Source of the DNA: Hexactinellida sp. DTS-2022
Taxonomy: Eukaryota; Porifera; Hexactinellida
Length of the DNA: 64,000 nt
Direction: 5' to 3'
Assembly: GCA_028753945.1 (NCBI GenBank)
Contig: JAPNXP010000013.1
Coordinates: 5,085,501-5,149,500, forward strand
The translations under genes were made by a program, and so were the position numbers. Position 1 is the first letter of the stretch; each line of letters starts with the position of its first letter. Below the pieces are notes generated by a model that was given only the letters and a program-made list of their open reading frames with translations, was not told where the DNA came from and made no database searches. Positions 8,348 to 63,555 of the stretch are shown piece after piece.

Positions 8348-11300
8348 ATGAATAAGCAGCTGGGCAGACTGACAGAGATTGGCCTGGGCATAATCCCACT
8401 GCCCGGACACACGCGCACTTTCCAGCTGTTGGTTCGCCACATCGGAGAGTCACGCACTAAGTACGAAGAGGACAGGATAATGGCCAGAGAGGTGACATTC
8501 CTGAAACAGAACCTAATGGCTCCTGAGGTGTCCGTTAGACAACAGATGGAGTTCATTATACGCATGATATATGTAGAGATGCTAGGTGAGGGTGTTTGTT
8601 TGTTTGTTGGTTTGTTTATTTACTTGTTTCCTTATTCATCTACTTATTTGTGATTCTATTTATTTATTTACTTGTTTGTTTGCTTGTTTGTTTGATTTTC
8701 CTTGCCTGCATTTGTTCATTTGTTTGTTTGTATATTTATTTGTCTGTTTATTCACTTGTTTATATGTTTGTATATTTATTTGTCTGTTTATTCACTTGTT
8801 TATATGTTTGTATATTTATTTGTCTGTTTGTTTATTCACTTGTTTATATATTTATTTATCTACTAGTTTGTTTGCTTGGTTTATTCACTTGTTAGTATAC
8901 CCCCTATTTATACCCTATATACTGTGTGTCTCGCTAGGTCACGACGCCTCCTTCGGGTACATCCTCGCGGTTAACCTGACGCAGCACTCCACGCTGATGG
9001 CCCGGAGACTCGGGTACCTGGCCGCCGCTATGTTTCTGCACAAAGACTCGGATCTGGGAATGCTGCTGGTCAACTCTCTGCAGAAGGACCTATCATGTTC
9101 TGACGTCATGCGGGTACCTAATTATATACCAGCTTTATGTGTAGCATAAGGCATAGTTAGCTAGCCAATTATATCACAGCTTATGTGCCTACTGTACTGT
9201 AGTATAAGGTGTAGTAAAACTGTTGATTAACAACCGATTTAACATTCCCTTCATGCTCCCGGGGCACCGGGGAAACTGTCCCTATTTGTTCTAAATTTAG
9301 ATTCCATTTGGCGTTTAAGACTGTTGCATAAATTAGGATTGGGTTTACATGTAGACTGCTAATAGGAACACGGATAAGGGAATATCGGTTAATGAGTAAA
9401 AGGTTAATTCCCCTAGCCTATACAAATGCATGCAAGTGACTCCGGTTAATTAATACGAATTCCGGTTAATACGAACACATTAAGACGGTCCCCTGGTGTT
9501 CCTATTAACGAGTATCTGCTATTCCAATCTGTTATTCTGTTTAGATTTGCATGGCCCTGGTGTGTATCGGACACACGGTAACCCCTGAGATGTTGCCAGT
9601 AGTGCTACCCCTGGTTAGGGAGTGCCTAACGCACTCTAAAGAGATAGTCAGGAAGAAAGCAATAGTGGTGCTATACAAACTATACAAACAGCAGAATATA
9701 AATGAGGGAGCGACCAGTGTACTCACAATAGAGTCAGCTCCTTTGGTGTCGCTAGTAGAGAGGTGTTTGTCGGACAGGGACCCCGGGGTGATGTCCTCTG
9801 GTCTCTCTATTCTGTACAAACTCGTGTTGGAAGAACCCACTAAGTTCAAGGGATTAGTTGATAGCATGGTTAATATTCTGATGCAAGTGAGTTATATATA
9901 GTTAATACAATATATGCAGTCGAATTACAGTAGAACCTCGTTAGTAGTAAATCACTGTTAATTTGAATTCCGGTTAATACGAACACTATTTCAGTCCCCT
10001 TCAAAGCCTTTTCAATACAAATGATATTGGTTATACGAATTCCAAACGAATTTTGACGGTCCCCTGGTGTTCGTACTAACGAGGTTCTACTGTAATAAAA
10101 ATATAAACAGTTTGACAATATTCTCAAATAGTTTCTTATATACTTTCCGAGTAAATTTTTATTGACACCTCAAATTTCACCATTTGTTTTTTAATCATTT
10201 TCAGGCTGCCAATATTAGTATATTTATGAGCATTCCTTTGTCCTTTCCTGTATCCACGGAGTTTATATTAACACGCCCTTTCTATATTTAGATTGTGACT
10301 CACAAAGTTTCAGTTGACTTCGAATACCATTCAGTGGCTCTACCATGGACACAAATAAAAATGTTACAAATCCTGTCGATAATCGGACAAGATGACTATA
10401 GCATTTCTAAGCGTATGTATGAGGTGTTGGAGGTGTGTTTAGCCCGCGCGAATTCTGAGGTGGGACAGCTGATCGGTAAGGCGCTGATATTCGAGTGTGT
10501 CCGGACAATAAGCTCCATTTATCCGGAACCAGAACTGATTAGGAAGGCGGCCGCAGCCGTTGGTAACTTCCTGTCTTCTCCGAGTAACAATATTAAGTAC
10601 TTTGGTATTACCTCTCTAACTCTGCTAGTACAGGTAAGCAGTGTGTTTGGTATAGCAGTATATACTGTAGTATACAAGGTTAATTCCCTTAGTCTATACA
10701 AATACATGCAAGTGACTCCAGTTAATACGAACATATTAAGACGGTCCCATAGTGTTCCTTCCTATTAACGAGAGTCTACTGTAAATATATTTCAGCCAAC
10801 ACTTTTTTAAGACATTTTTTAGTTACTGTAGCTAGAATGTGTATGAATATGCCACTTAAATATGTCGCTAAATATGTCACTAATATACCACTAACATGCC
10901 ACTATATTGTGTCGTTTGTGCCACTATAATGTGCCACTATAATTGTGTCGCCTATAGGTGTCGGCAGAGCACGCGTTGGAGCACCAGGAAGTAATAATGC
11001 GATGTCTCGACGATCCCGATGACACCTTGAAAAGGAAAACTCTAGAACTATTGTGTCGCATCACGGGACCCGAAAACGTGTCCGTTATTTGCAGCAAACT
11101 TATCCAATATTTGGAGAGCGTCACTGACCAGTTTATAAGAGGAGATTTGGCGCGTAAAATCACAGAAATAGCGGAAAAACACGCGCCAAACCACGATTGG
11201 TTTCTGGAAACGGTTTCGCGCGTATTTCGATTGGCGGGCGATTTAGTGGCGCCTAATGTTGCGCATAACTTAATGCGATTAATCGCCGAGGGAACCGACA

Positions 11301-13408
11301 GTGGTAACGAAAGTGGCGAAAAGGAATTCAGAATGAAAGCTGTCGCTATATTTAGTAACATTCTTATTGAGGCCGAAACCGATTTAACAATCCCTGATTC
11401 ACTTTTACGAATTGTATGCTGGGTATTATCCGAATATTTATATTTGTGTCCGAATTTGAGTTCCATAAACACCGCTTCGCGACTAGCGAAACTTTACAAA
11501 GGAAACCGGTCTCCGCTTACACAGAATTGGATTATCCAATCAGTTATCAAGCTAGCTATACATGACGAAATAGTTAGGAATACCATTAACACCTTATTTG
11601 CCCAATCAAATCTGTTTCTTAACATCGATACTCAACAGAGATGGAATGAATACATTGGAATTATGAGTTCTAAATATAGATACGATTCTGTTCACCCATT
11701 GGACGCCAGCTGTGAGGATTTAGGAGTAGATTCAACTCTCGGGTTTCTCACGAAATTTTCCGTGGAATGTGAGAAAAGTGGCGCGCCACCCTATCAACCG
11801 CCACACGTACGAAGGAATGTCAAACCGACACCAAAAGCAACTGAGATTAATTACAAACCATACGAACCACCGACTATTCCAGCTCCAAAGCAAATAATCC
11901 CAGTGCCACTCTCGATTCAAGGTAAACAAATGGATAAATTCACACCTATTTCTATATCCACTGCACAAACAATTCCGTCTGTTATAAATCCTAGCGAAGA
12001 AATGACTCAGTTTAATACTACACAGTCCATTAACCGTCCGTGGTCCGTTAAGGGGTACAAGAACAAACAATCCAGTTTACAATCGGAACCAAATACCGTA
12101 GAATCTCAACAAACACAGTTAAGTAATAAACTAAGTTCTAACTTCACAAGTTACGAGCCCAACACTTCGGTTACAACTCACATAGCTGCGCCTACTATTT
12201 CGCAGGAAGACCCAAAGCGACGAGAAGCGAATTCTATTTTCGGACATTTGGCACCTCAAACTGGAGGTGGCATTCTTTCGCAGAATTCCAGAAAACAAAA
12301 AGTTTCCGCGCCGATTGTGGCTCGACAGGAAAGTCCACTTTTGGAGCCACAAATAGCGACACTTTTGGAGCCAACCAATCAAGAGACACCCCTCATATCC
12401 CATGACACGATTGAGAGTACTCAGGCTCCTTTGGAACTGGAACTAACACCTCAGTTGGTTCCAGATACAAACTCACTCCTCCCAGACCTAACAGCTGATC
12501 CCACACTCCCAGATTCTAGCAATAGTACAGAGCTACAGCCCAATATGGAACTAGAACCGGAACTAAACACCAATATGGAACTAAACACTTCTCAAACAGT
12601 TCTTTCGGAAATTCTCCTCAATGAAAATGGCAGCGGTTTCGCCTTCATAAACGAACCCTTTCCATTGGCAGAATACAACCCGTCTAAAGGTGTTGAAATT
12701 AATCCGGAACTAAACGAATTCCCGAAAGAAGAACAAAACTTTCTGGTGTCAGATTCTAATATTCGTGTGACGTATGTCAAGGTGTTTAAACCCGACACCT
12801 TAGTTCTATTTATAGTACTGACTAACCAAATACAGGAAGGTTTAACGGATATCCTATTCAAGTATCAATTCCCTTCCAATTTACGGCTAATTGGAACTGA
12901 AACTAAGAATGAAATTAGACTTGAGAACTTGTCAGGATTTGAGTCACATTCCGAGACTTTAGAGATCCGCTGCACTGCCCCAGCCATGAATCCAACCGTC
13001 AGTGGCGAACTGAGTTATAAGGACGCTAGGAAAACTCTACAAAGATTGTTTTTTAATTTGATTATAAGCATTCGGGATTTAATGCGACCGCTTAAATTCA
13101 CACCTCAAGAGTTCGAAAATGATTGGTCCGCTTCGCTTATGTTTAAAAAGAAACGAACAACCATTTCGCCAACTGGGATTTCAAATATTTCCGATTTTAT
13201 TTCTATGTTTCGACAGAAAGTAAATGTACATGAAGTTGATAGGAAGGGAAGTGAGCTATTATTTGCCGGCAATTTCATCTCAAATGTTAAATCGCTTTTT
13301 CATGTAACTTATAACGAAAAACTTTGTTCAGCAGAAGTGTCAATTCTATCTCGAAACCAACTTTTAACAGATTCCGTGGCTCACTATTTAGAGAAAAATC
13401 TGAAATAG
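8348..13408 (+). CDS. AP4E1: AP-4 adaptor complex subunit epsilon
   Basis: Exons 8348-8585, 8938-9113, 9545-9886, 10292-10633 and 10958-13408 join in frame to a 1182-residue protein; the human protein is 1137. The adaptin trunk starts at the ATG with LVRHIGESRTKYEEDRI and continues through EMLG-HDASFGYI, LPLVRECLTHSKEIVRKKA and the FEYHSVALPW block. These are the epsilon-type version of the large adaptin fold. Residues of about 600-950 form a Ser/Thr/Pro/Gln-rich hinge. The last 225 or so form an appendage-like domain. AP-4 sorts cargo from the trans-Golgi network in a clathrin-independent coat. The start ATG is preceded by no obvious upstream coding. The last exon is a single 2.45 kb block without introns. 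Confidence 0.93.
8586..8937 (+). repeat. GTTT/ATTT array in AP4E1 intron 1
   Basis: The intron is nearly all TTTATTTGTTTG-like tetranucleotides. It includes three copies of a 48-base-spaced unit around 8730-8830 containing TATATTTATTTGTCTG. Confidence 0.8.
9356..9517. mobile_element. MITE, TGCATGCA family
   Basis: The left end CTAATAGGAACACGG is mirrored by GTGTTCCTATTAACGAG. The interior has GGTTAATTCCCCTAGCC and AAATGCATGCAAGTGACTCC, hallmarks of the family seen at eight or more other places here. It sits in AP4E1 intron 2. Confidence 0.7.
9928..10092. mobile_element. MITE, CAGTAGAACCTCG family
   Basis: The termini CAGTAGAACCTCGTTAGTA and ACTAACGAGGTTCTACTG are near-perfect inverted repeats flanked by TA on each side. 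This is the Tc1/mariner-pogo type of end and target duplication. It sits in AP4E1 intron 3. Confidence 0.75.
10661..10782. mobile_element. Truncated MITE, TGCATGCA family
   Basis: It contains GGTTAATTCCCTTAGTC, a degenerate ATACATGCAAGTGACTCC and the right end TTCCTATTAACGAG...CTACTGTA. The left terminus is reduced. It sits in AP4E1 intron 4. Confidence 0.6.
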
Positions 13409-25800: not shown

Positions 25801-28800
25801 GATTGCAACATTTGCTTTCAACCGGGATGGCAAACCCCGGCCCCTGCAGCTCTCAAGCAACAACCTATTCGGAACCGCAACTATGCTACGAGACGACATT
25901 CTACAGTTCCGGTATTCCGGTACTATTGAGGACGGATATTGGGGGATAGAAACCGTAGTGGACAAGTACGATTTTAGACGAGAAGCGAGGAAAATAATAG
26001 TAATACTAACAGATGAGGAGAGGGACAAGGAAAGAGAGGATCTTAATTTCTCGGCTATCTTAGAGCTACTGAATACAAACGGCATTACTTTATACGCTAT
26101 AGTAGAAGAACAGTTTGAAGTCAAATATAGTGAGTATTCATATTATGTAGTATCAGTTCCAATATAGAGCAATGTACAGTGGATACCGGTTATAAGAACA
26201 TCGTCGGGAACTGCATATAATGTTCTTATAACCGGTGTTCTTACTAATTCACTGTTGTAAAGTACTAAAGTGTATATATACTTTTGAGTATGTCACAGGT
26301 GTTCACATAAGTGGAACTATACTAGACTATACAGAGAATAACACCTGCATACAAACATCTGCTATTCTGTCTGTGATACAGAGAATAACACCTGCAACAG
26401 TAGCACGAAAAGTATAAATACAGTCAAGTTGTGAGATCTAACAGAATAGATGCTCTTATTGTAGCGACAGCGGCTCCTATTCTAGTATAGTCCCCCATCA
26501 CTTTAATATAAGCCGGACAATTAAGCGAACAACAATCGAGTTTTAATACGTATAGATATTTAGTTTCAGTTCCAATTTACTTGTACTATTCCTATAGAGG
26601 GCGAGCTGCACCGGGCAATGGGTTTAGATGATAAAGGAATTTCTTATATCCAAGACCCAGAGGATCCCAATGGGTACATCAAGGTGCCAAACGGTTCCTC
26701 CCAGAAGTTCTCTTCCTACCAGACAACTCACGAGGATTATGTAACTCTCTCCCATGCGACTGGGGGTGCCAGTTGGGATATAACGCTTATTCAGGATAAC
26801 CTGAGTGTATACGCTATGGCTTTGTTAGATGCGCTGTTTGAAGACTCGGTTAGACGGATCAGCTGTTCCAATTGCACTTGTGTGAGTGGGGAGTTAGTTT
26901 GTGACTCTTTAAAGGAATTCTCAGATATTCCAGACTGCATAGGTACGTTATAAGGTGTTAGGAACCCAATTTGAGAATGGCGCCTAAAATTTAAGTTTGG
27001 CGCCCGAAAATATAATTGGCGCCTTTTTTTAATTTAAGCGACATGTTTATTAGTGGCACCTAAAGGTATTTTTAACACCTTTAGAATTTATACTGGCGTT
27101 CAAATTTCAATCTGGGCACAAAATTTAAGTTTGGCGCCAAATCTTAAAATTCATCTATGCAATATTGTGGCTCCATCGGTACATAAATTTGGTATTTCTT
27201 TAAGTTTGCATTCATTTGAACTCTGTCAAAATTTGTTAGTCTTATCCGGAATTCGTATTAACCGGAGTTATTCACATGCATTTGTATAGGCTACAAAATA
27301 TAGCTTGTTCGCATAATTAACCGATATTTCGCCTTGTTCGAATTATACTGTATTTTATTTTAATTAAGTTGTTACTCATTTAGCTAAAAAACTTTTTAAG
27401 CTAATCGATTGACTTAATTAAGATTTTGGAATGGTTTTGATTAACTTTTGATAATAAACAAAAAATCAAATTAAAAACATTGTAATGAATAATTAGGATT
27501 ATTAGACACAACAAATATATTTCCTAATTGAGAAATGGAAATACCATTTGGGTCAATAAACTCTCCTTTCTTGTCGCCTTTCTTCCCAATGGTATGGATG
27601 TGCTGTCCGCTTTTTGAGAATATCTTTATGGCATTGTGTCCAGTGTCGCTAATGATGATATTCCCAGCTGGATCCAAACAGAAGAAGAAAGGGCCATACA
27701 CCAAACAATCCGGTTCCTCTCCCCGAGAGATACAGGAACTGAGGAGGGATCCATTCCTTGAAAAGAACTTAACACAGTTGGGACTCCAGTCCAGCACCAC
27801 GACACATTCCTTGGTTAGTTTCACGTCGCGTGGGCAGAAAAGTTGCTCAGTTCCGAGACACGTTTCGAATTGTAGCTCTTTGGAGTATCTTGATATTCTG
27901 TGATTTAAGCAATCTGCAACAAACACATCTCCATTTGTGTCGATAGCGAGGCCGTGAGAGAAACGTAGCTGTCCTTCTTCTTCCCCGTAAGTTCCAGTTC
28001 TGTTCTTTAATTTCCGGTCTTGCTTGCCGAACTGGAACAGAGAGTGGTGTCCTGTGTCCGTAACTAATATTTGTTCGTCTGTCACAGCTATGCCACATGG
28101 TGCCGTGAGTATTCCTTGTCCGAAGCTTGTTACGAACTTCCCTTCAAACGACACCACTTGAATTCGGGAGTTGCCACAATCAGCTATGTAGATTAGTTTG
28201 TTTGGTTCATCAATCGAGAGACCAGTTGCATAGAGTTGTTTGGCACCTGTCCCTTTCTTCCCAGCTGTTAGTATCGGTTCCACTTTCTTGGAATAATCGG
28301 GTACCTCCCAAACTGACAGCTCCCCGATACCTGAGATTACACTCCGTAGCGTTTGGAGAGTCGGACAGTCGAAGAGAGGGCACGGGAGTTTGATAGGTGT
28401 CGACAGGCCCTCTAGGCCCTGTTGGTACACCTCAGTGGCCTGTTGGTGAATAGGAATGTTCGTATTCACTTTGAGACTCATCAGCTGCAACTGTTGTCTC
28501 GTTAGTTCCAGTTCCTGAATGGCAGCCTCACGCGTGGTCTCCTTGATGGTGTAGTCCTCTCGGAGCTGGGACAGTTCGAGTAGGAGAGCGTCCCTCCTCG
28601 CGATCAGCTGTGCGATAAGAGGGTCAAAGGTTTGGGCTATTTCAATGGCAACAGCATCGAACTGTGCGAATGTGTTTAGTGGCACATTTGGTGGCAGATT
28701 AGTGGCCATTTTATTGTTGTTTGAAGTTAGTTTGTTCAAATAATTTATTTTAGTTCTATAGACTCTAAACTTATAGTACTTTGTAACCTGAGCATACCAT

Positions 28801-42711: not shown

Positions 42712-45700
42712 ATGTCCCAAAAACCTAGTTTGGTTGACGAACTTTTGAGTCGTGTAATTCCAACAGAGACAAACGAGATAGAAAAGTTAACCCATAAAGT
42801 TAAGGAATATTACGAATTGAGTTCCTACCAACTAACCTATCTTATAGAAAGGTGTTATATTAAGAAGGACGTTAGTTGTTTGATTATTATCGAATTAAAG
42901 AAATTAAGTTTCGATTTAAATGAAACAAAAGATGAATCTTCTCAGAGAATAAATCGGGAATCGCATTTGACACTTCTGGTTGCTAAGAGGCGAGATGTGG
43001 AATTGGAACTAAACCAGATTTGCTCTCTAATTACAACTGTGGATCAGCTGATCACATTCCAAGAGCTCTATAGGGTTGCTAAGCTAGCTATACATGGGAA
43101 TTTCTATTTAGAAGCTGTTAAGAACATTCTAGAAACAAGTGAAGCATTGGAAAATGTAATACATAAACTCCCGGATAATTTAGCTGTTCATATCCGAACT
43201 GATTTTGAGCTAAATTTAGAATTTGTGCGTAATATGGTGCGAACAATTTGGTTTGAAATTATTCATTTAAGGTGTTACCCCCTTGATATTTCGACACCCG
43301 ACGACCTAATGTTTTTATTGCGTTTTTGGATAGTACTAAGTATTCTAAGATATCCCTGCAAATATTAGAGTTCTACTATCTATTAATCCATAGTTATGAA
43401 CTATGTAAGTTTCAATACAGTACTAATCCATACTAGCCAATAATTGAATTTTGAACCTTTATTTCATTTTTTAGCCCGAAACATGTCAATTATATATTAT
43501 ACCTGAGTCGATTCTCGAGGGTTTCAACCGCATCAGAATTTCAAAATTCCTCCGTCTTCCCCAACTTATTGTCATTTTTGTGAAATTGGTCCAAAAAATT
43601 GCCAAAATTTTGATTAAAAGTGTCCTAATTGAATATTTTTGTATTATAAGGCCAAAACTGCCGCGGTTGAAACCCTTCATCTACGTTTCCTGATCATTTA
43701 AAAAAAAAGTTTGACTTTCTATGATAAATATTCTGGATTTTACATTTTTTTTCCCAAACTCACTTTTTTTTTTATTCAAATTTTTTTTTAAAGTAAATAT
43801 TACGTAATTTAATTTTTTGTTTCTTAAATATTTTCGATTTTTCTGCATTTTTTTTAAAAAAAAATCACGGGTGACATTCTCTGTATCATTTAGAGTATTG
43901 CTGGAAGGAAATATCCCACTTTTAAAATTCCAATTATTTCACGAAATTTCATGCACGTATGCCCTTTTAAAAATTTTTTTTTTTTTTCTTAAATATTTTC
44001 GATTTTTTCTGACTTTAAAAAAAAAAAAAAATTATGGGTGACAATCAGTATATCATACAGAGTATTCCTGGTAAGAAATATTTTCACAATCAATGCCCCT
44101 GAATATCAAGGGGGAAACACCTTAAGTTTTCCAGAAAAAGTAGATAAATATGAAGATGCGATAAAAGTTAGTATTACTTTAGCTCAGCAATATGAAACTT
44201 ATTCGCTAAAGGAAATATGCGAAATGTTGTCACAGCTTAATTTATTGCAAGATTTGTTCAAACAGTTTTCACACTTATTTCTTAAGTTTGTTATAAAACC
44301 TATTTTTAGTATAAGAACAATCTCAGTAATTGTTAATGATTCTGATTTGGAAGATAAAATTAACTTTTCGCATCAAAATGGATTCAATAATTTACAAGAA
44401 TTACCGAAATTATTGACACGCACGCTGCGAATTGTGGCACAAACTTTCACACCTTTCGAATTGGGAAAAGAATTACTGATTGAATTCGGGTTAATTATTT
44501 GGGCGCCAATTACAAAGCTGTTAAATTCTCTCTTACTCGACCGGCAATTCGAAATGACAGAAACCCTAAAATGTGATTGGTTGGCATTTGAAGAAGACAT
44601 GATTTCTATCGGCATTCTAAAAATAGAACAAAAATCTGTTTATTCTCTGCTTTTGAAGTTGGACACTGGATTTAAAGAAAAGAGACAAGCCAACATACTT
44701 GGGGACACCCGTGACCTTATAAAATCCGATCTTTCTCTCACAAAAAACGTTAGTATAAAAGTAAATAATAATAAATTAACCGATTATTTGACTGAAAATA
44801 TTTCCGAATCGGATTTACAATCTCGTTTGTATCTCACAAACCATCCTTTAAGCAACTCTGAAAATAATTATTTGAAAGAAAATTTATTCATATTTCCTTC
44901 TTGTTCAGTTTCACTATTTACAATCGAATTTATTTACAAATGCCATCAATTAATGTTAGAAGCAACTCAAAACCAAACGCAACATGCATTCGATATTATA
45001 AAGACAATCCGTTTAATGCTACAAATGTTCATAAGTTTGACTCCTTACCATCATAAAGTACAGATAAATACTGTACCCAGATCAGTGGCAATATTCTATA
45101 ATAACTGTATGTATATCAGCCATCATCTCATCACACTAGGATTTGAATATAGGGAGAATATGCCAATTCCACTTAACTCTGAAATATGTACTTTCATAGA
45201 TTTCGTTCCGGTTATTAGGAATTTAGGAGAAGAGACTTGGTACGAAATGATTTTAAAACAGAAATCCGAAACGAAGGAAATAATTTCTCCGCTTGAAAAC
45301 TCTATTCAAGGATTATCCGATACGAAAGGTGATTTGGTACAAAAGTGCTTTATATCATTAATCTCACACATCAGTGAACTAAGCTTGGTTTTGAAAGACG
45401 TTCTACCTTTATACTTGGTCCGGGGGTCAATTGGCCTAATTCTTAATGGCACATTTGAATATTGTATAAACTCTGTTTTTAGCTTAACTGATATTTCCGC
45501 TAATGATGCAAGTAAAGCCGCGAATATTTACTCGTTGCTAAGCAACCGTTCTGTCGCTCTGTTCCATATAAACACCGGAAATGAGTCGGAGGTGTTAGGG
45601 GAGGAATGCGAAAGTTGGTTCCGGTTCCAACAGCTGATTTCCCTTCTGGAGGCCAGCTTGAATGAAATCCGCAGAAAATGGGACAAAGGAAGGGGGCCTT

Positions 45701-45798
45701 TCGGGGTGAATTTCAAAGCGAGCGAAGTTAGGAATTTTGTGAAAGGAAGTTTTAAGAATAGCGATAGAAGATCGGATTTGTTGTCTGAGATTAGTTAG
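42712..45798 (+). CDS. ZW10: ZW10, kinetochore and NRZ tethering subunit
   Basis: Exons 42712-43271 and about 44061-45798 join to 765 residues; human ZW10 is 779. Diagnostic blocks are VAIFYNNCMYISHHLITLGF, FIDFVPVIRNLGEETW and the C-terminal EASLNEIRRKWDKGRGPFGV with VRNFVKGSFKNSDRRSDLL. The N-terminal half is predicted helical, like the family. ZW10 recruits dynein/Spindly at kinetochores in the RZZ complex and tethers Golgi-to-ER vesicles in the NRZ complex with NAG and RINT1. The 3' side of the intron is uncertain: AGs before 44061 and before 44076 both keep frame, and a duplicated segment lies just upstream. The first exon could also run further, as reading-through residues look faintly ZW10-like but meet a stop at about 43366. 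Confidence 0.87.
43272..44060 (+). other. ZW10 intron with duplicated acceptor region
   Basis: The intron is T- and A-rich, with long homopolymer runs. Segments 43818-43915 and 43988-44083 are imperfect direct copies: both contain CTTAAATATTTTCGATTTTT, a poly(A) run, GGGTGACA and AGAGTATTxCTGG. The second copy carries the acceptor used for exon 2. An inverted-looking pair GGTTTCAACCGC (43522) / GCGGTTGAAACCC (43662) spans a possible small element. Confidence 0.65.
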
Positions 45799-55315: not shown

Positions 55316-57043
55316 TCATTGTAATCCTTCAAGGTCATCTTGAGCCACATTTTCTTCCACTTGTGCCACATTTTCTGCCACTTGTGCTCCATTTTCTGCC
55401 ACTTGTGCTACATTTTTTGCCACTTGTGCTCCATTTTCATTTTCAATTATTTCATATTCATCTTCAGGATTAAATTTGTCAAAAAAAAACTTGTAAAATT
55501 GTTCGTTTGAAATTCTACTCTCAGGGTTTGGGAAGGTACACCTGAATTTCCTAAATAGATCTGGTTTTAGATTTTTCATAATATAATATGCGATTCTGAC
55601 GGACAAACCGCCGCTTCCGCCGGAAAACGCCCCCAAGACCGCCCCCCCGGCTATCGCTATTGGCCCGCCCAAAACACCAACGGCTGCGAAAACCACTGCG
55701 CCACCTAAAGCGCCACCAGTCACTGGGCCAACCGCGCCAACTAATTCCAAACCTTTGTCGAGAACACATTTCGAACGACACCGGTTCTGAACTCTAATTT
55801 CCTCGATGAATCGCTCCATTTCTGATATAACTGCATGGTCCACATAGTGTTTCCCTTCCGACACTTCCTTTACTAGTAAACAGGTCCTGACGATTCGTTC
55901 TAGACATTCACGCGGGGTTTGGTTGTCAAGTGCTACCCAGGTATGTCTCTTCCCAACTTTTCGGAAAATATTCCTTACGCCTTCATTTTCACAATTGTTT
56001 CTAATTTCCTGCTCAAAATGTTGTTGTTCTCTAACTTTGAAAATAATGAAGGTGTAGTCCCAGAATTTGTCTCCCCCTTCAAGCGAATATCTGTTTGGCA
56101 AGCTACAAATCAAATCATAAATTCCATCTGTGAAGGCATTTGTTAAACTGATGAGTATAATCATCACGGTTATGCCTTTGCCGATTTCTTTCAGGTTTTT
56201 GGCCGCTGCTTTAATTTCCTCTTTCAGTTCCAACTCGCCATCTCTGAAAGGCTCAATGTCATGACTGAACAAACACTCAATGTCATACTTTTGCTTGTGT
56301 ATCATATTATTATCGTTTATGTCAAGAAATTGTTTCATACTATCAGCTTTGAAGTCGGTATTTCCATGAAACATCATTCGTAGGGTTGGTTTTGAGAGTG
56401 CGAATAGTTCAGTTAGTATTTCCATTTGTGCCTCGGGTTCTTGATTAATTGCGTTCACATACATATACCTATCTCCTATCATTCCAAGGATATATTTGAA
56501 CCAGTTCCATTCGTCCGTTTCACATTTTTCTTTCAGCTTTGCGTCTAAGTTTTCTTTATTTATTTCTACCCCTGGATCTAGGGTCTGGTCTGTATGTGTG
56601 AATACGACAAGTGCGTTGCTGAAAAAGCTATATGATGCCTTTGCCAGGTTCTTAGCTAGCGCGAGAATTGACCTCACCAAATCTGGACTCACGACCTCAG
56701 ATGCTAGATTAACTACAATCACGAATGTTACAGATAGCAATGGCTTTGATGTACGAATGCATTCAATTAGATTCTTGCTGTGATTTGCTAGCTTAACACT
56801 AGGGTCAGTCAAACCGGGCTGATCGAATATTTCAATTTTTATTTCTTCGGTGTTCCCATTGAATGTCCCCTTGGGTATTGTTCTGGTATAAAACTGGACC
56901 TTCTGTGTTTGCCCCCTTGCCTCTTGATTGACGTGTGCCTGGAACACATTTTCCCCGGCGATGAGGTTCCCTAGCGAGCTCTTACCATCTCCCAATTTAC
57001 CCATTAATATGAAGCTACGCTGACAAGTAGCTTTGTTTCCCAT
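55316..57043 (-). CDS. AIG1/GIMAP-like GTPase with second pseudo-GTPase domain
   Basis: One 575-residue frame with an ATG, convergent with ACO1 (170 bases apart) and divergent from the next gene (385 bases). The GTPase domain (residues 10-215) has a P-loop GKLGDGKS (15-22), DQPG (74-77) and FTHTD (148-152). A second copy of the fold (220-395) has HGNTDF in place of the P-loop, a MIILISLTNAF beta strand and WDYTFIIFK, but no GKS or DxxG. Residues 431-480 are a Gly/Ala/Val-rich hydrophobic segment that could insert into membrane. The tail (537-569) is four to five AQVAEN-type heptads. Starting MGNKATC suggests N-myristoylation and palmitoylation. Family members act in immune or vesicle-membrane scaffolding; the role here is unknown. 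Confidence 0.85.
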   Translation of the reverse strand: MGNKATCQRSFILMGKLGDGKSSLGNLIAGENVFQAHVNQEARGQTQKVQFYTRTIPKGTFNGNTEEIKIEIFDQPGLTDPSVKLANHSKNLIECIRTSKPLLSVTFVIVVNLASEVVSPDLVRSILALAKNLAKASYSFFSNALVVFTHTDQTLDPGVEINKENLDAKLKEKCETDEWNWFKYILGMIGDRYMYVNAINQEPEAQMEILTELFALSKPTLRMMFHGNTDFKADSMKQFLDINDNNMIHKQKYDIECLFSHDIEPFRDGELELKEEIKAAAKNLKEIGKGITVMIILISLTNAFTDGIYDLICSLPNRYSLEGGDKFWDYTFIIFKVREQQHFEQEIRNNCENEGVRNIFRKVGKRHTWVALDNQTPRECLERIVRTCLLVKEVSEGKHYVDHAVISEMERFIEEIRVQNRCRSKCVLDKGLELVGAVGPVTGGALGGAVVFAAVGVLGGPIAIAGGAVLGAFSGGSGGLSVRIAYYIMKNLKPDLFRKFRCTFPNPESRISNEQFYKFFFDKFNPEDEYEIIENENGAQVAKNVAQVAENGAQVAENVAQVEENVAQDDLEGLQ

Positions 57044-57428
57044 TGTCTTAATGGCGATCTTGAGTTAATTTTTTGAGTTTAATTGTTTGTATTTGAGTGT
57101 ACATAGGCATACTGTTGAGGTTATATGATATCTCATAATATGTAGTGAGATATTCAATCCATTTTGCTATTAAGGTATTACGTATAACATAATGTTTATA
57201 TGATTGTATTCAATCCTGTTGATTGACTTATACAATATAGTTCTCTTTAACAAAGGTTGAAACAAGTATTCATACATAGAGTAAATACTTGTAAATACTT
57301 AATAAAAATGTACTTTCTTAATCTTGTAAATTGAACTTTTCCATAAAGAAAAAAGGTTTAATCAGTAGTAGCCCGAGGTTGGTATATTATTGTTTTGCTT
57401 CTGAATATTTACATTAGAAAGCAGCATT
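57044..57428. promoter_or_regulatory. Shared divergent promoter region of two GIMAP-like genes
   Basis: An AT-rich 385-base interval separates the starts of the 575-residue gene (minus) and the 219-residue gene (plus). No MITE or microsatellite is present. I cannot point to specific binding sites. Divergent expression is inferred from layout. Confidence 0.4.
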
Positions 57429-58088
57429 ATGGGAAACCGGTACAGGATTTTGGTCCTCGGGAATAATGCAGTCGAATCCTCACAATTGTTTGAAAAGTTG
57501 CAACTCTCCTACCCATACAATAACTGTATTGAAACCGGGAAAGGACGACTCGAGTTCTATGCTTATCCTGATCTCGATCTGTACAACAGATTCCAAGAAC
57601 CTCAAATTGATGATACCATTAGCAATTTGGTTAGTGACACTAGCGATCATGGAAGAGTTTCTCTCTTCCTAATTTTGATCAGTCAAACTGAAGTTTTCAG
57701 TAATAATATGCGAGATATGATAATAAATCTGTCTAAAAATAGACAGTTTCCCAGTGAAAAGTATTTTTGGGATCACGCGACAATTCTGTTCTCTTTTGAG
57801 GATAAGATAGAAAATAACGATATGGAAGTGTCGAAATCCATTAAAGGAAATGTAGGGATCGAAGAAGTTGTTAAAAAGGCGGGGAACAGGTACATTTGTA
57901 TGTCAAATCGCACCTCGAAAGATGAAATCCTACACAGCATTATATCAATGTGTGAACGCAGGAGCATTCCATCCAAGTGTGAAGAAGTAGTACAGGCAAA
58001 TAAACCTTGGGGTGCTGGTATTAAACAAGTCTGTCTTACCATTTTGTGTTTTTTTTGTTTGTGTTTATTTATTTCTTATCTTAATTAA
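57429..58088 (+). CDS. Orphan AIG1-like pseudo-GTPase domain, tail-anchored
   Basis: The 219-residue frame begins MGNRYRILVLGNNAVESS. The GNNAVESS stretch occupies the P-loop position but lacks the GKS. YAYPDLDLYNRF replaces the DxxG motif. FLILISQTEVF, YFWDHATILFSFED and NRYICMSNR correspond to beta strands 4, 5 and 6 of GIMAP proteins. It therefore equals the second domain of the neighbouring two-domain proteins without the first. Residues of about 200-219 are a C-terminal hydrophobic anchor (LTILCFFCLCLFISYLN). A Gly at position 2 suggests possible myristoylation. It cannot be expected to bind GTP in the usual way; a partner or decoy role is inferred. DNA in its first half is very close to the gene at 62659. 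Confidence 0.78.
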   Translation: MGNRYRILVLGNNAVESSQLFEKLQLSYPYNNCIETGKGRLEFYAYPDLDLYNRFQEPQIDDTISNLVSDTSDHGRVSLFLILISQTEVFSNNMRDMIINLSKNRQFPSEKYFWDHATILFSFEDKIENNDMEVSKSIKGNVGIEEVVKKAGNRYICMSNRTSKDEILHSIISMCERRSIPSKCEEVVQANKPWGAGIKQVCLTILCFFCLCLFISYLN

Positions 58089-58353
58089 TTTAGGTATTAA
58101 TACTGATAATTTGTTCCCAAAACTTTGTAAGTAAGTTACCCACTGATCAGTTTTATCTTGCAAATGTCTTCCCTCTTACATATCTACGACACATGATAAA
58201 ACCTCTCCTTTGTTACTAGTAAAAGAGAAACGAACTTTTATAATGCAATTTTACATTCATGTACTTCTAGTTATGTAGTAAATCCAATGCAATAGTTTAA
58301 TTATTCGAATGCATTTATTATACTTACTATATTGAAGCAGTTTGACTTGATAA

Positions 58354-60045
58354 ATGCATTCTGGTGAAATATTTATTAATACATATCCATTGTATCATTT
58401 CAATTTAGTATCCATGGGACAAGGCACTTCAGCTCCGCAACCACCTCCAGAGAAACCTAATGATCGCGTTTTCATCATGCTCGGAAAAGTTGGATTTGGA
58501 AAGAGCACATTTGGTAACTTCTTGGTTGGAGGAGACTATAACTCCTTCAACATCGGTGAAGAGTCCCGCTGTTATAGCTTGACTAGTAGAGTCCAATCAG
58601 TAGTTACTACCCTGTCCCCTGAAACACTAGCCGGTATGGGTGTTAGAAATCAAAATGAAATGGGTGTTAGAAATCAAAATGAAAAAATTGCAATTAAGGT
58701 AATAGACCAGCCAGGCATGGATGATGCTAATTTCAAAGTAATGGATCATTGTAAGAGTTTAATTAAATGCCTGGAGAATTCGGATGCGAAGACCTTCGCT
58801 ACATTTTTGATTGTGATAAATCTTGAATCGAAGCGTTTATCAGATGATCGCTGTGTCTTATTAGTTCAACTGTCAGAATTGTTGACACAAGCTTCGTATA
58901 GCTTTTTCTCGCATGCCATCATTGTGTTTACGCATGCAGATAAAGTCGGGATAGTTTCCTCCTACGACAATAGAGAAGAGTTGATGCAAATTGTTAGAAG
59001 AAAAATACAAGAACTGAAAGGCTGGGAAGAGTTAGGAGAGATCTTCCAAGCTGTTAACGAGCGATGTATCTTTGTGAACGGAACATGTCGGGACGGGAAT
59101 TACAGAATCCAAATAATGAAAGAACTGTTTGAACTGTCCAAGAGCACACTCACCATACGATTTCATGCAAATAATGACTTTACATCTGAGTACATTCAAG
59201 ATAAATTGGGTGCGCGTGGTGGTGGAATAATGCAAGAGGAATTTTACAATCTTGATTTTCAATTTCATCCCGATCTCAATATATACTGGCGTGATGAGTA
59301 TAGGGGTGAAAATTTGGGGAGTCAGATTAACAAAGCCATTCAGACAATGATAAGTTTGGGGGAAGGTGTTTCCGCTATGGTAGTGCTGATCAGTCTTGTC
59401 AATCCGTTTAGCACACAGATGGAGGAACTAATTATGAACCTACCTGGTTGCTACATTCCAGGAGATGGCCCAGCTGTTGAATCTACGGTGATGCAGTGGT
59501 GGAGGCAAACGTTTATTGTGTTTAAAGTAACAAACGAGAGAGATGCTAAATCGTTTGTCCAGACAAATATTGAAATGAATCCACGAATCAAATATCTAGT
59601 TGGCAAGGTGTCTAACAGATGGACTTGGGTTGCCGAAGATACCAGTGCTATAACATGCAAGGATAGAATGAGTGGCATGTGCATTGCTTTGAGGAAGGAA
59701 GTCGCTGGAAGAAACTTTATCCAGAATACTGTTATTAAAGAAATTAAGATTAAAATGAAAGAAACCGTTGAATTATCAGATATAAAAACTGAAGTAAGGG
59801 TCTTTACACCAAAGTTCCATAATTTGATGGCTAAAGGAGCTCTTACCATAATGGAATCAAAAAATTCTGTGTTTGTAAAACTCGGTGGCATTCCGTTTAA
59901 ACAGAAATTTTCAGTTGTGTCCATGCGTCTCATTCTAAGGAGTACTTGTTTGAGTGCTGAACAGATTAACCGTTTTAAAGCTAGGTACACTAATGCTCAG
60001 GATAAAGTTTCTATTGAAGAAGTTCTTCGCTTTCTAGCTAACTGA
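58354..60045 (+). CDS. AIG1/GIMAP-like GTPase with second pseudo-GTPase domain
   Basis: The frame gives 563 residues from the ATG at 58354. A better start is the ATG at 58414 (MGQGTSAP, 543 residues): it has a Met-Gly acylation context, and TTTAG just upstream may be the acceptor of a 5' UTR intron. The P-loop is GKVGFGKS, switch II DQPGMDD and G4 THADK; these are intact. The second domain starts TIRFHANNDF, then VVLISLVNPF and WWRQTFIVFKV, with no nucleotide motifs. A 24-base direct duplication at 58636-58683 repeats MGVRNQNE between G1 and G3. The C-terminal 100 residues are not hydrophobic, so any membrane contact would be by the N-terminal lipid. Confidence 0.85.
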   Translation: MHSGEIFINTYPLYHFNLVSMGQGTSAPQPPPEKPNDRVFIMLGKVGFGKSTFGNFLVGGDYNSFNIGEESRCYSLTSRVQSVVTTLSPETLAGMGVRNQNEMGVRNQNEKIAIKVIDQPGMDDANFKVMDHCKSLIKCLENSDAKTFATFLIVINLESKRLSDDRCVLLVQLSELLTQASYSFFSHAIIVFTHADKVGIVSSYDNREELMQIVRRKIQELKGWEELGEIFQAVNERCIFVNGTCRDGNYRIQIMKELFELSKSTLTIRFHANNDFTSEYIQDKLGARGGGIMQEEFYNLDFQFHPDLNIYWRDEYRGENLGSQINKAIQTMISLGEGVSAMVVLISLVNPFSTQMEELIMNLPGCYIPGDGPAVESTVMQWWRQTFIVFKVTNERDAKSFVQTNIEMNPRIKYLVGKVSNRWTWVAEDTSAITCKDRMSGMCIALRKEVAGRNFIQNTVIKEIKIKMKETVELSDIKTEVRVFTPKFHNLMAKGALTIMESKNSVFVKLGGIPFKQKFSVVSMRLILRSTCLSAEQINRFKARYTNAQDKVSIEEVLRFLAN

Positions 60046-60514
60046 AATCCATGGAGATGATCAATGCTAATATACAGTTGAACTGTTTTTATTTTTTTAA
60101 GATTTACGTTGTCACATTAGAAACGTTTACAAACTTTTATATATAATTTGAATTTCAATTTATGTATAATATTGTATATATAACTGTGTTCATTAAGTAC
60201 TTTTGTAGATTGAGACAGTGATTCACTGTATGTTTGCCTACCGTAAAAATTTTCATTTATGTAATTAATGATGATTCCTTAGTTGGATCATGCTTTTTAT
60301 ATGTTCTCAAAAAAATTATAATTTGAGTTTCCATATTATACATTGTAGTATGTTGGGCAAGTTTCTAAAAACACTTTCTGCTTTCAATAATGCTGTAAAT
60401 TGCACAAATTACGTCTCACAGTTGCATTTAGCTTAATAGTACATCAAGTTAAATGCTCCAATCACCATTTTAATTTGCTTGAGTAGTTATCCTGTTATTT
60501 AGAATTCCATAGCA
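60046..60514. other. Intergenic spacer in the GIMAP-like cluster
   Basis: AT-rich 469 bases with no gene, MITE or microsatellite that I can see. TTTAG at 60498-60502, twelve bases before the next ATG, could again mark a 5' UTR acceptor. Confidence 0.45.
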
Positions 60515-61816
60515 ATGCATTGCACCGCTAGGAATCTAGTGTTGCTGGGACGGGTAGAGAGTGGCAAGAGTCTGCTCACGGAGCTCATAATGGGAGAGGG
60601 TGCTAGAAGGAATAATATCTGTGGAGAAGTAGACATTAAACTAACTCCAGATGAACCAGGTATTCGCGTGAGACTGTTTGAACCAGTTGCTGCAGATAGA
60701 AATAGAGTCTGTTTAGACATTGTCAGTGAGCAAACAACTGACACCTGTTTTGTTGTTGTTGTTGACATTAACAAGAGTGTTGAGTTTGGGAATGAGTTAG
60801 TCAGTCTGAAAGAACTATCAGAGCACCTCTCTGAATATTCTTATTCCCTATTCGGTAACTGTATGCTTGTCTTTACACACATTGATGAGCTACCAGCAGA
60901 AGTTAACAGAGTCCGTGTGGAGCAACAGGGTTTCGATGAGATTCTAGCTCTCGTGGACAACAGGTGTATGTTCCTTAATTGCACTGATCGGAGTAAGGAT
61001 AACAGGGATAGGGCGCAGAGTGAGATCGTACTACTCTCTAAACCGTCTCTAAGAATTGTGTGTTACGGGAATAATGCTTATAAGAGTGAATCATTTCTTC
61101 CTAATTTATTCGGAGAAATATCTGAAAATGTGTACCTCTATCGTGCGCAAGATCTCAACATATTTAATCAATTCGTACATGAGACCACACCCGAGCTTAG
61201 GAATTTGATTGGGGATCAACAGCATATCGGCAAGGGAGTATCTGTATTTGTGATTCTGATTAGTCAGAGCGAAATATTCAGTCGCTCTATGCTCGATTTA
61301 ATCAAACGTATTCCGTCATTTCTTGAGTTAGATGCTGAAAGTGAAAGCTACTTTTGGGATAGAGTATTAATTGTGTTTGATACCAAAGGAGGCGAAAACT
61401 CTGATAGGATAATTCAAGACTCAATCAATAGAAATATTGGTATCAAGGAAATTGTCGAAACAGCAGGAGGGAGATGCACTTATGTTTCGTCAGAAATTGA
61501 TTCCCTGTCAAGAATTGTGATGAATTGTCAGGAAATAGGTCAAGCTAACAATCATAGAGAATTCATAGGGGGAATGGGTCTTCGTGCAAGAGCACTAAAT
61601 TATGCTATATTCCAAGTTCCAACTATTCGACACATAGTATTATCAAAAATGTACAAACACAAATTAGTATTGTTAGTTTTGGGGGTAGCTATTTTTGGGG
61701 GAATAGGATATAATTTTCCAACAATCTCAAAAGCATTTTTGACTTGTCTTTCAAATTTCCAAAATATTCCGGGATACTTCTCTAAAATTTTAAAGAATAT
61801 AATCGCGTTTTTTTAG
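60515..61816 (+). CDS. Divergent AIG1-like GTPase with pseudo-GTPase domain and C-terminal anchor
   Basis: A 433-residue frame. The first domain has a good P-loop, GRVESGKS (12-19), and G4-like FTHIDEL. The DxxG motif is replaced by FEPVAADR, so hydrolysis may be impaired. The domain is shorter than in the paralogues. The second domain (from about 185) starts RIVCYGNNAY and has FVILISQSEIF, YFWDRVLIVFDTK and GRCTYVSS. A C-terminal segment of about 20 hydrophobic residues (LVLLVLGVAIFGGIGYNF, about 385-405) plus amphipathic helices suggests membrane anchoring. This protein has both GTPase and anchor halves, intermediate between the two-domain soluble and orphan anchored forms. Confidence 0.8.
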   Translation: MHCTARNLVLLGRVESGKSLLTELIMGEGARRNNICGEVDIKLTPDEPGIRVRLFEPVAADRNRVCLDIVSEQTTDTCFVVVVDINKSVEFGNELVSLKELSEHLSEYSYSLFGNCMLVFTHIDELPAEVNRVRVEQQGFDEILALVDNRCMFLNCTDRSKDNRDRAQSEIVLLSKPSLRIVCYGNNAYKSESFLPNLFGEISENVYLYRAQDLNIFNQFVHETTPELRNLIGDQQHIGKGVSVFVILISQSEIFSRSMLDLIKRIPSFLELDAESESYFWDRVLIVFDTKGGENSDRIIQDSINRNIGIKEIVETAGGRCTYVSSEIDSLSRIVMNCQEIGQANNHREFIGGMGLRARALNYAIFQVPTIRHIVLSKMYKHKLVLLVLGVAIFGGIGYNFPTISKAFLTCLSNFQNIPGYFSKILKNIIAFF

Positions 61817-62658
61817 CATATACTCAGTGGTAGGAAATATCGCTTCCTCCCTGATATGCTGTTTGTCAGCCTGTTTTTACCTCTCTTCAGTCTGTTACTT
61901 TTGTACCATTCAATCATTTAGGTCTTGTATTTATGTAATAATTAGGCAGGTTTTACCTGTTGATACATTGTGATATATTAATGTATTCAAGAGAAATGAA
62001 TGGATATAAATGAACAATTTTATAACGACCTTACCATATTGAACCGCCTACTAGATTACATTTCCTAGCAATATGGCCACTTTGATTAAGCCCATGTATA
62101 ATTATATTTTAACACTGCACAATATACCAATTGAAGCTGGGCCACCGAATAGAGATTTTGATCGAAACTTTATATGTTGGGAAAGGTTAACAGTGGGAAA
62201 GCCAGGGGCGCAGAACCATGGTATATTATACCTATTACCGCAAGTCGTCTGAGTTAAATAATCTCGGAGCCGAGTTTTCTGACACCTTTCTTGTCGTGTG
62301 TGACATGAGTGGGAATTGTTTTCAAAACGAAGTGATTATATATATCCTTCTAAATATTTCTGGAAAGTTTTATTGCATTAATTTCGAATATTATATGGTT
62401 ATAGCCTAAGGTCCTAAACTCCTAATGAACCTCTATTAAGTATTTTTTAATTTTGATCTGTAAGTAATACACCCCTTATTACTATTCTAAATGTTTACCT
62501 AAAGTATAGCAACTTATATTGTCCTGTTTCGTTTAAATGAGACTTCCCTGGACATTTACGCGATTTATTCATTTTGCTTGATTTAATTTTTTATACTAGT
62601 GGGATATATTTTAAACACATGAATTTAGGTTGAAAATCCTGCAGTTTATAGGCCAATT
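61817..62658. other. Spacer with a GTPase relic
   Basis: AT-rich sequence without MITEs. Its central part (62162-62400) retains decayed GTPase coding, listed separately. The rest shows nothing that I can assign. Confidence 0.5.
62162..62400 (+). pseudogene. Relic of an AIG1-type GTPase domain
   Basis: At 62174 one frame reads MLGKVNSGKA, close to the P-loop region of the 563-residue protein (MLGKVGFGKS). Some 100 bases later another frame reads FSDTFLVVCDMSGNCFQNEV, resembling TDTCFVVVVDINKSVEFGNE of the 433-residue protein. Frame changes and stops separate them, and much of the domain is missing. It lies about 300 bases upstream of the orphan second-domain gene at 62659 in the same orientation. 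Confidence 0.6.
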
Positions 62659-63555
62659 ATGGACGAATATCATGGTTGTCCCAAACAATCTTATAGGATT
62701 TTGGTTCATGGGAATAATGCAGTCGAATCCTCACAATTGTTTGAAAAATTGCAACTTTCCTACCCAAATGATCAATGTATCCAAATGGGGCATCCACTCG
62801 AGTTCTATGCTTATCCTGATCTCGATCTGTACAACAAATTCCAAGAACCTCAAATTGATGATAACATTAGCAAATTGGTTAGTGACACTAGCGATCGCGG
62901 AGGAATTTCTCTTTTCATAATATTGATCAGTCAAACTGAAGTTTTTAGTCCTACTATGCGAGAGATGATAACAAAAATTCCTAAAGATATGCATTTCAAA
63001 AGTGAGAATTATTTTTGGGATCACGCGGCAGTTATGTTTTCGTTTGAAGAAAAGAAAACAAATTACCAAGAGGAAGTGTCGAAATCCATGACAAGGAATG
63101 TAGGCATTAGAGAAGTGGTGGAAAGGACTCGGAACAGGTACATTTGGATGTCCAATTTTAATACAAAAGAGGAAATCGCAGAGAAAATTCTATCACAATG
63201 TAAAGACATAGACAATGGACATTTTCTTCAGGTTCATTGCAACAAGAACAACTACAATAGTTGCAAATATCTGTGTAACATGATGCGGAGTGTTATATCT
63301 TGGTGGTGTATTCTATTGATGTTCATATTCATAGGAACTGTTATATTTCTTGTGTTTACCGGTATAATCATATTCGTTCTTCCTCCAACAACGGTTTTGA
63401 TTATTGTTGTCGGGCCAATTATTTCTGTTTTTTTCGCTTGCGGATATTGTATGCTACGTGGAATTCCCTCGGTATATAACAAATATGTGGGACACCTGCG
63501 GTATGCAATCAAGCATGTTAATAGGAATGTTAGGTGGCTGGTGTTTTTGTGTTAA
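62659..63555 (+). CDS. Orphan AIG1-like pseudo-GTPase domain with two TM segments
   Basis: A 298-residue frame. Residues 12-200 match the gene at 57429 almost line by line: YRILVHGNNAVESS in place of a P-loop, YAYPDLDLYNKF, FIILISQTEVF, YFWDHAAVMFSFEE and NRYIWMSN. It lacks GKS, DxxG and a TKxD-type motif. The C-terminus differs: two long hydrophobic stretches (about 215-265: WWCILLMFIFIGTVIFLVF and TTVLIIVVGPIISVFFACGY) could form a hairpin membrane anchor. The start lacks Gly-2, unlike its twin. An acceptor-like TTATAG lies seven bases before the ATG. An unseen upstream exon is possible, but the upstream GTPase half is decayed. Confidence 0.78.
   Translation: MDEYHGCPKQSYRILVHGNNAVESSQLFEKLQLSYPNDQCIQMGHPLEFYAYPDLDLYNKFQEPQIDDNISKLVSDTSDRGGISLFIILISQTEVFSPTMREMITKIPKDMHFKSENYFWDHAAVMFSFEEKKTNYQEEVSKSMTRNVGIREVVERTRNRYIWMSNFNTKEEIAEKILSQCKDIDNGHFLQVHCNKNNYNSCKYLCNMMRSVISWWCILLMFIFIGTVIFLVFTGIIIFVLPPTTVLIIVVGPIISVFFACGYCMLRGIPSVYNKYVGHLRYAIKHVNRNVRWLVFLC

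Follow-up and report, generated by a model that had tools for sequence, protein, structure and literature searches.

A GIMAP-like gene cluster in a hexactinellid sponge with predicted pseudoGTPase second domains and genes for that domain alone

The cluster and its first domains

The window studied here is a stretch of 64,000 nucleotides from the genome of the sponge Hexactinellida sp. DTS-2022 (C5:5085501-5149500), and it holds a cluster of GIMAP-like genes in five uninterrupted open frames within positions 55316-63555. Three of the genes (P0001, P0002 and P0003) encode a first domain (D1) with GTPase motifs followed by a second domain (D2), which is well supported by sequence profiles as a degenerate AIG1 domain. 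The other two (P0004 and P0005) encode D2 alone. Genes are named P0001-P0007, or P1-P7 for short, and C1-C18 are contigs of the same genome. The open frames, of 582, 227, 563, 437 and 308 amino acids, hold P0001 (575 amino acids), P0005 (219), P0002 (543 or 563), P0003 (433) and P0004 (298), and all five have an ATG shortly downstream of an in-frame stop. The lengths that the first-pass annotation had given for the three larger proteins (575, 543-563 and 433 amino acids, at 55316..63555) are confirmed, as are the coordinates. A sixth gene, P0007, begins about 0.2 kb beyond the window's end and is a copy of the 543-amino-acid form of P0002 (93% identical over 533 codons), and another two-domain gene, P0006 (567 amino acids), lies on contig C10. 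Searches of the sponge's own genome covered 112.4 Mb in 18 contigs and scored only the best candidates, so member counts are lower bounds.

The first domains belong to the AIG1/GIMAP family, Pfam PF04548, by the scores of four of the five two-domain proteins. The curated cut-off of the family is 27 bits, and D1 exceeds it in P0001 (55.9 bits, 4.6e-15), P0002 (37.1 bits, 2.8e-9), P0006 (47.7 bits) and P0007 (42.8 bits); D1 of P0003 falls below it at 20.2 bits. The same four D1s carry all three of G1 (GxxxxGK[ST]), G3 (DxPG) and a G4-like [TS]HxD. P0003 D1 has G1 and G4, and its G3 is ambiguous: the alignment gives DEPG, and the strand pattern suggests an altered site slightly further on. The PDB structures nearest to P0001 are GIMAP4 (E 3.9e-6), GIMAP5 (1.6e-4) and GIMAP7 (0.0021), and P0002 finds GIMAP4 alone (E 0.024).

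A route to membranes is predicted for all seven proteins P0001-P0007, because each has an N-myristoylation consensus, a hydrophobic stretch or both. P0001, P0002, P0006 and P0007 begin with MGxxx[ST], which fits PROSITE pattern PS00008; P0002 read from 58414 starts with MGQGTSA, which fits, and P0003, P0004 and P0005 do not match. The translations of P8 and P9 lack an initial methionine, and the comparison of starts covers P0001-P0007. By hydropathy, hydrophobic stretches lie 3' of D2 in P0001, P0003, P0004, P0005 and P0006, and those of P0001 and P0006 are glycine-rich.

Two of the proteins also contain short repeats. The P0001 C-terminus has repeated AQVAEN-like units (about 55330-55440). 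P0002 has MGVRNQNE twice in tandem (about 58636-58683) where P0007 has one related unit, MGVRNQYA, which suggests a recent in-frame repeat.

Table 1. Positions in the window of the genes, domains and other features of the cluster.
Feature	Position	Strand	Description
P0001, 575 aa	55316..57043	minus	two-domain gene, D1 + degenerate D2
P0001 D1	56387-57043, residues 1-219	minus	motifs GKLGDGKSS / DQPG / FTHTD
P0001 D2	about 55838-56386	minus	degenerate
P0001 N-terminus MGNKATC	57023..57043	minus	matches N-myristoylation consensus
P0001 glycine-rich hydrophobic stretch 3' of D2	55625..55744, residues 434-473	minus	possible membrane segment (hydropathy)
P0005, 219 aa	57429..58088	plus	D2 alone (57429-57950) + predicted C-terminal transmembrane tail, residues 194-219 (hydropathy)
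P0002, 543 aa	58414..60045	plus	563 aa if the upstream ATG at 58354 is used
P0002 D1	58414-59145	plus	motifs GKVGFGKST / DQPG / FTHAD
P0002 D2	59146-59712	plus	followed by a tail without transmembrane segment
P0003, 433 aa	60515..61816	plus	D1 60515-61045 (GRVESGKSL; G3 ambiguous), D2 61046-61555
P0003 hydrophobic segment	residues 383-404	plus	one segment (hydropathy)
Probable decayed D1 relic, 5' of P0004	62142..62203	plus	N-terminal stretch + P-loop, frame change, shortened
P0004, 298 aa	62659..63555	plus	D2 alone, 62686-63207
P0004 hydrophobic stretch, about 60 residues	residues 205-267	plus	fits 2 or 3 transmembrane segments (hydropathy)

Homology and motif loss in the second domain

No Pfam domain was found that already describes the second domain, a point that the first-pass annotation had wanted checked: scanned alone, 0 of the 7 D2s scored above any cut-off. 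P0005 D2 gives a sub-threshold match to AIG1 (18.3 bits, E 0.0015) over the G4-to-G5 region. When P0005 was used to search the genome, its matches outside the cluster were on C2 (8e-6) and, weakly, on C18 (0.85) and C6 (2.4). The frames on C2 and C18 each encode a protein of one domain, here called C2a and C18 respectively, and C2a lies about 0.4 kb 5' of an ordinary GIMAP gene. C18 and C2a match each other at 8e-20 and match Pfam AIG1 at 4e-5 and 5e-5 respectively, over most of the model length and below the cut-off. Genome searches with each of the two found no further member among the best candidates scored.

Local profiles with 2000 shuffled decoys were used to compare these proteins. The D2 profile was built from six cluster D2s, counting that of P0007 and holding out that of P0006. 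The first-pass annotation had proposed profile-profile searches with the second domain alone. With the D2 profile, C2a was found at 3e-11, C18 at 1.4e-6 and an ordinary GIMAP on C1 at 1.9e-5, against 0.24 for the best of the decoys. The held-out P0006 D2 came at 1.4e-4 and P0001 D1 at 1e-3. Other GIMAPs followed (C3 0.0022, C2b 0.03, C12 0.13), as did the D1s of P0007 (0.026), P0002 (0.03), P0003 (6.3) and P0006 (58), and the remaining GTPases of the set came at 72 or above or were unlisted. Conversely, a profile of C18 and C2a found P0005 (7e-9), P0004 (2e-8) and P0003 D2 (1e-5), with a best decoy of 0.27. A profile-profile comparison put the second half of D1 and D2 in register (E 1.5e-4, probability 51). 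Profiles were also searched against the 177,635 distinct sequences of the PDB, where a joint profile (the D2s, including those of P0006 and P0007, with C18 and C2a) has GIMAP7 as its top match at E 3e-4, and the next, unrelated match at 0.021.

These profile results tie the D2 group to AIG1 through C2a and C18, and among D2s taken singly they leave those other than P0005, P0004 and P0003 unrecognisable. C18 and C2a are, in sequence, graded single-domain intermediates that bridge the D2s to AIG1 domains: C18 has a full P-loop (GNSGCGKSS) with ESPG and FTHAD, and C2a has lost the P-loop lysine (GKSGSGQTS) and has ESPG and FTAID. Two contig collections were searched as well, with the D2 profile in a viral one (43 pattern matches, no relative) and with P0002 in a genomic one (57 pattern matches, no relative); the contigs are viral or prokaryotic, so these absences say little.

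The motif table agrees with the claim of the first-pass annotation that GKS and DxxG are missing from the second region. Neither GKS nor DxPG stands at the aligned positions, and the Walker-A lysine and DxPG occur in 0 of 7 D2s. At the P-loop position lie, as had been noted, HGNTDF, HANNDF and YGNNAY; where C18 and C2a have the P-loop sequences given above, the D2s read GNNAVESSQ or the like, and GN(N/T) or ANN is found there in 6 of 7. G4 is lost in the D2s of P0001, P0002, P0003 and P0007, and P0006 D2 retains LTHSN. In the R(F/Y)(S/T) box the arginine, aligned with residue 108 of chain 3zjc, is kept by P0002 and P0007 only among the five D1s, and is replaced in all seven D2s (by A, P, I, V, V, P and K). 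This residue is reportedly the catalytic arginine of GIMAP7 (Schwefel 2013).

Other sequence features are kept. The D2s have the hydrophobic strand pattern, the arginine of the last strand (7/7), F(S/T) after the lost arginine (6/7) and, except in P0006 D2, a tryptophan preceding the fifth strand. Across five D2s there are 14 invariant columns, which include LIS in the fourth strand, the tryptophan and the last-strand arginine. Two strand motifs had been drawn too broadly: ILIS is not common to all, as P0002 has VLIS, and WD(Y/R)xxIVF is literal only in P0003, where P0001 has WDYTFIIF and P0002 has WWRQTFIVF. Identity to the D2 of P0005 is 67% for P0004 and 21-36% for the other cluster D2s.

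Altogether the profiles and the motif table support the suggestion of the first-pass annotation that the second region is a catalytically dead AIG1-type domain. A pseudoGTPase is defined, in the cited part of PMC5593906, as a GTPase-like domain without one or more of the G motifs, and judged by sequence D2 is a pseudoGTPase in this sense. Those of class i bind no nucleotide, and D2 would be expected to bind none either.

Second-domain-only genes and the origin of the two-domain form

The 219-amino-acid P0005 and the 298-amino-acid P0004, which go beyond what the first-pass annotation described, consist of D2 alone with hydrophobic stretches that by hydropathy suit transmembrane segments. Between their D2s pN/pS is 0.59 (Fisher p 0.0024), and comparing P0005 and P0004 each with P0003 D2 gives p values of 4e-8 and 1.9e-7; at these distances the synonymous sites are close to saturated. 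By these substitution counts, P0004 and P0005 are not simply decaying and are under constraint. The two D2s (57429-57950 and 62686-63207) have 93% DNA identity over codons 41-80 and 79% in the flanking 40-codon blocks, a possible case of gene conversion. Between P0002 and P0007, D1 is constrained (pN/pS 0.27, p 6e-4) and the tail is unconstrained (1.12).

A decayed relic of D1 probably lies upstream of P0004. A frameshift-tolerant alignment of this region to P0002 D1 gave a score that 4 of 3000 first-order Markov resamples equalled or passed, and that none of 65 real windows did (in an earlier, smaller run, 1 of 150 resamples did so). The relic is graded just probable because six query-region pairs were tried. 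Among the others, P0003 D1 gave 2 of 150 in the same region, but at a different, out-of-order place, and P0001 D1 gave 47 of 150; in the region 5' of P0005 nothing stood out with D1 of P0001, P0002 or P0003. With plain tblastn the top score for the relic 5' of P0004 was 18.9 bits, which does not stand out from 300 shuffles, whose median was 17.7 and whose maximum was 25.4.

The two-domain architecture is present at two loci, on C5 and C10, and a tree of 18 domains suggests how it arose. In the tree the D2s come together (87/92) and so do the D1s (93/90), with neither branch starred; the split that puts D1 with ordinary GIMAPs and D2 with C18 and C2a (92/93) is not starred either. P0006 D2 forms the outermost row of the D2 group, and the D2-only proteins are nested inside. 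Since they are nested there, and the outermost row comes from a two-domain gene, loss of D1 would be the simplest history of the D2-only genes. The tree suggests that the two-domain genes at C5 and C10 share a single origin, and one fusion before the two loci split is favoured over an intragenic duplication. Constraining D1 and D2 together, as intragenic duplication would have it, is not rejected (p-AU 0.071), and grouping the cluster D2s with C18 and C2a to the exclusion of P0006 D2 gives p-AU 0.102. P0006 D2 and P0003 D1 are long branches of uncertain placement, and the branching within the cluster D2s has low support (54/8).

Some related fragments and neighbours were seen along the way. 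Two fragments on C10 (G000:C10:572087-572410 and 574755-574874) are 45% and 63% identical to P0006 and appear to be its decayed neighbours; C10:572087-572410 carries 8 stops. On contig C12 (L011:1399-3633) an AIG1 domain is followed by a long, charged, coiled-coil-looking stretch and by a Vint/Hint match that is weak, at 22.6 bits against a cut-off of 27, and the cited parts of PMC7053062 and PMC12373286 report an AIG1 and Hint combination from snail and lancelet. Elsewhere in the window are a frame with an SRCR domain (2110-2763, 1.4e-23), an AP-4 epsilon-like frame (10958-13408) and a ZW10-like frame (44038-45798). Open frames with NHL repeats lie within the window at 27471-28739 and also close to the two GIMAP loci, at L039:6991-8238 and L041:8224-9492. 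A linkage of GIMAP and NHL genes was considered and set aside: there is an NHL gene near each of the two loci, yet the one at 27471-28739 is a further such gene, and plain abundance may explain the pattern.

Possible roles of the second domain

Several published systems are close to the sponge proteins, and each is compared here as described in the cited parts of its source. GIMAPs are controlled by dimerisation; GIMAP2 on its own binds GTP without hydrolysing it, and GIMAP7 promotes hydrolysis by GIMAP2 (PMC8201404). This pair shares with the sponge proteins the AIG1 domain, the combination of a non-hydrolysing protein with a promoting partner and, in GIMAP2, a hydrophobic tail. GIMAP2 still binds GTP, however, whereas in D2 the motifs for binding are gone, and D2 is part of the same chain as D1. 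Septins whose pockets have degenerated go on working as G-interface partners (PMC10731463). The class I septin pseudoGTPases (Spn7, tentatively Spr28) are alike in having a related paraseptin GTPase domain, a decayed pocket (G1, G3 and G4 in Spn7) and use of the G interface, but they are separate filament subunits with no tandem fusion. In p190RhoGAP the pseudoGTPase domains pG1 and pG2 stand beside a GTP-binding GTPase domain and there is evidence against their binding nucleotide (PMC5593906), although these are Rho-GAP signalling proteins outside the AIG1 family.

Tandem AIG1 proteins, dual and triple, are themselves already known. In the snail Biomphalaria, 8 of 91 AIG genes have dual AIG1 domains, and 3 of them have transmembrane and coiled-coil domains (PMC7053062); in lancelet tandem AIG1 proteins the AIG1 domains at the C-terminus cluster by themselves (PMC12373286); and vertebrate GIMAP8 has several AIG1 domains in one chain (PMC8201404). 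In the usage of PMC7053062 a GIMAP combines AIG1 with a coiled coil. The tandem proteins resemble the sponge proteins in having more than one AIG1-type domain per chain, and the three snail proteins also in their transmembrane domains, which are predicted for some of the sponge proteins. They differ in that their domains are found by AIG1 models, while here no D2 is above the Pfam cut-off and all are without the Walker-A lysine. Free-standing dead membrane proteins go unmentioned in the cited parts of those papers, though the snail survey does list 'partial AIGs' without some motifs (PMC7053062). AIG1 genes are said, in the cited parts, to be absent from the sponge Amphimedon (PMC3723955, PMC7053062) and to be microbe-responsive in another sponge (PMC11229196).

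The first-pass annotation had known of no description of the architecture, and part of it does seem to be new. Within openly licensed literature, as far as the sources were represented, no account turned up of a GIMAP whose second domain is dead and which is accompanied by dead copies standing free; a search for tandem degenerate AIG1 GTPase domains found none, and one for GIMAP with pseudoGTPase turned up septins only. The new part is the dead AIG1 domain with free-standing membrane copies.

By analogy with the GIMAP2/GIMAP7 pairing and with pocketless septins at the G interface, we are led to suspect, tentatively but as the likeliest of the readings, that these are membrane-attached GIMAP-like proteins in which D1 keeps live motifs and the pseudoGTPase D2 serves as its nucleotide-free partner in cis, with the D2-only proteins as free partners in trans. 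D2 would then be a fixed interaction partner without nucleotide, and would most likely meet D1, of the same or another chain, through the GIMAP dimerisation face. The GTP cycle of D1 would set the opening and closing of the D1-D2 contact at the membrane, and the D2-only transmembrane proteins may offer proteins that bear D1 a docking site at the membrane, or be competitors for them, a form of regulation that could serve in immunity. Regulating or templating assembly, as the first-pass annotation had proposed for an intramolecular dead partner, would likewise be a possible role. A more elaborate version, which we hold to be rather unlikely, has two tiers of control. In it one dead AIG1 lineage would work both in cis and in trans, the trans copies docking, capping or titrating live GIMAPs; the dead domain would go back to a fusion that took in a single-domain lineage whose motifs were already being lost (C18 has GKS and ESPG, C2a has GQT and ESPG), and the partners in trans would be former two-domain genes minus D1.

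Several results weigh against the partner reading. A Pfam AIG1 match is absent altogether in six of the seven D2s. The C18 and C2a profile leaves P0006 D2 (0.19), P0001 D2 (0.24), P0007 D2 (5.1) and P0002 D2 (28) at decoy level. Among the D2s the D1 profile detects just P0005 (0.0017; best decoy 0.056), with P0004 (0.26) and the D2s of P0003 (0.63), P0001 (2.7), P0006 (4), P0002 (87) and P0007 (110) at decoy level. In the PDB the profile of D2s alone has GIMAP7 at the top without significance (E 0.26). P0003 D1 is doubtful at G3. The loss of G4 in P0004 and P0005 (FSFEEK and FSFEDK) is weaker than that of G1, and is less clear because GIMAP7 (FTRKEE), GIMAP5 (FTHKED) and the GIMAPs on C1 (FTNERE) and C3 (FNHEKK) also vary there. 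Constraint between the D2s of P0002 and P0007 is non-significant (pN/pS 0.54, p 0.10), and the myristoylation match of these two proteins holds only from the second ATG, which lies 20 codons into the open frame.

The silence of Pfam and the single detection by the D1 profile are also what one would cite for a D2 that is unrelated to GTPases and resembles them by chance and a short shared motif. We regard this as very improbable, as the matches of the D2 profile to C2a and C18, and the converse matches to P0005, P0004 and P0003 D2, lie at least four orders of magnitude past the decoys, and the graded intermediates C18 and C2a align with most of the AIG1 model, though below its cut-off. If D2 does have the fold, it may be a mere remnant of it, a spacer or membrane-proximal platform whose surface binds nothing particular. 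The strong divergence of the cluster D2s would suit such a part, but the D2-only genes keep an open frame and constraint, and the 14 invariant columns also speak for more than a spacer, so that this too seems improbable. The recurrence of GN(N/T) or ANN where a P-loop would stand might instead mean that the old pocket binds another ligand, such as ATP or a phosphorylated metabolite, and that D2 is a sensor; with the Walker-A lysine gone and no common replacement motif beyond GN(N/T) or ANN, there is little likelihood of this.

An unlikely but somewhat better placed alternative is that D2 is a decoy, a surface that effectors of pathogens or symbionts attack in place of a working GTPase. The comparison, which is our own, is with the mouse tandem IRG protein Irgb2-b1, which protects other members of the IRG family against a parasite's kinase complex (cited part of PMC3810784). 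Like the sponge proteins it has two immune GTPase units per chain, but it is of another GTPase family and is made from two adjacent coding units spliced together. The decoy would be in keeping with the faster evolution of D2 and tail than of D1 between P0002 and P0007 (0.54 and 1.12 against 0.27), and with the microbe-responsive AIG1-family genes of the sponge D. avara (cited part of PMC11229196) and a coral (cited part of PMC3723955). Against it stands the constraint on the D2s of P0004 and P0005.

Pairing between G domains is the proposed means of GIMAP control (cited part of PMC8201404). The fusion of a live-looking with a dead domain, the dead-only membrane copies and the single-domain relative with a full P-loop make up a ready set of constructs for testing whether a partner free of nucleotide can switch a GIMAP or hold it. 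A survey of this genome for AIG1 by Pfam alone misses the D2s and the D2-only genes, and tandem AIG1 proteins may for that reason be commoner than has been reported.

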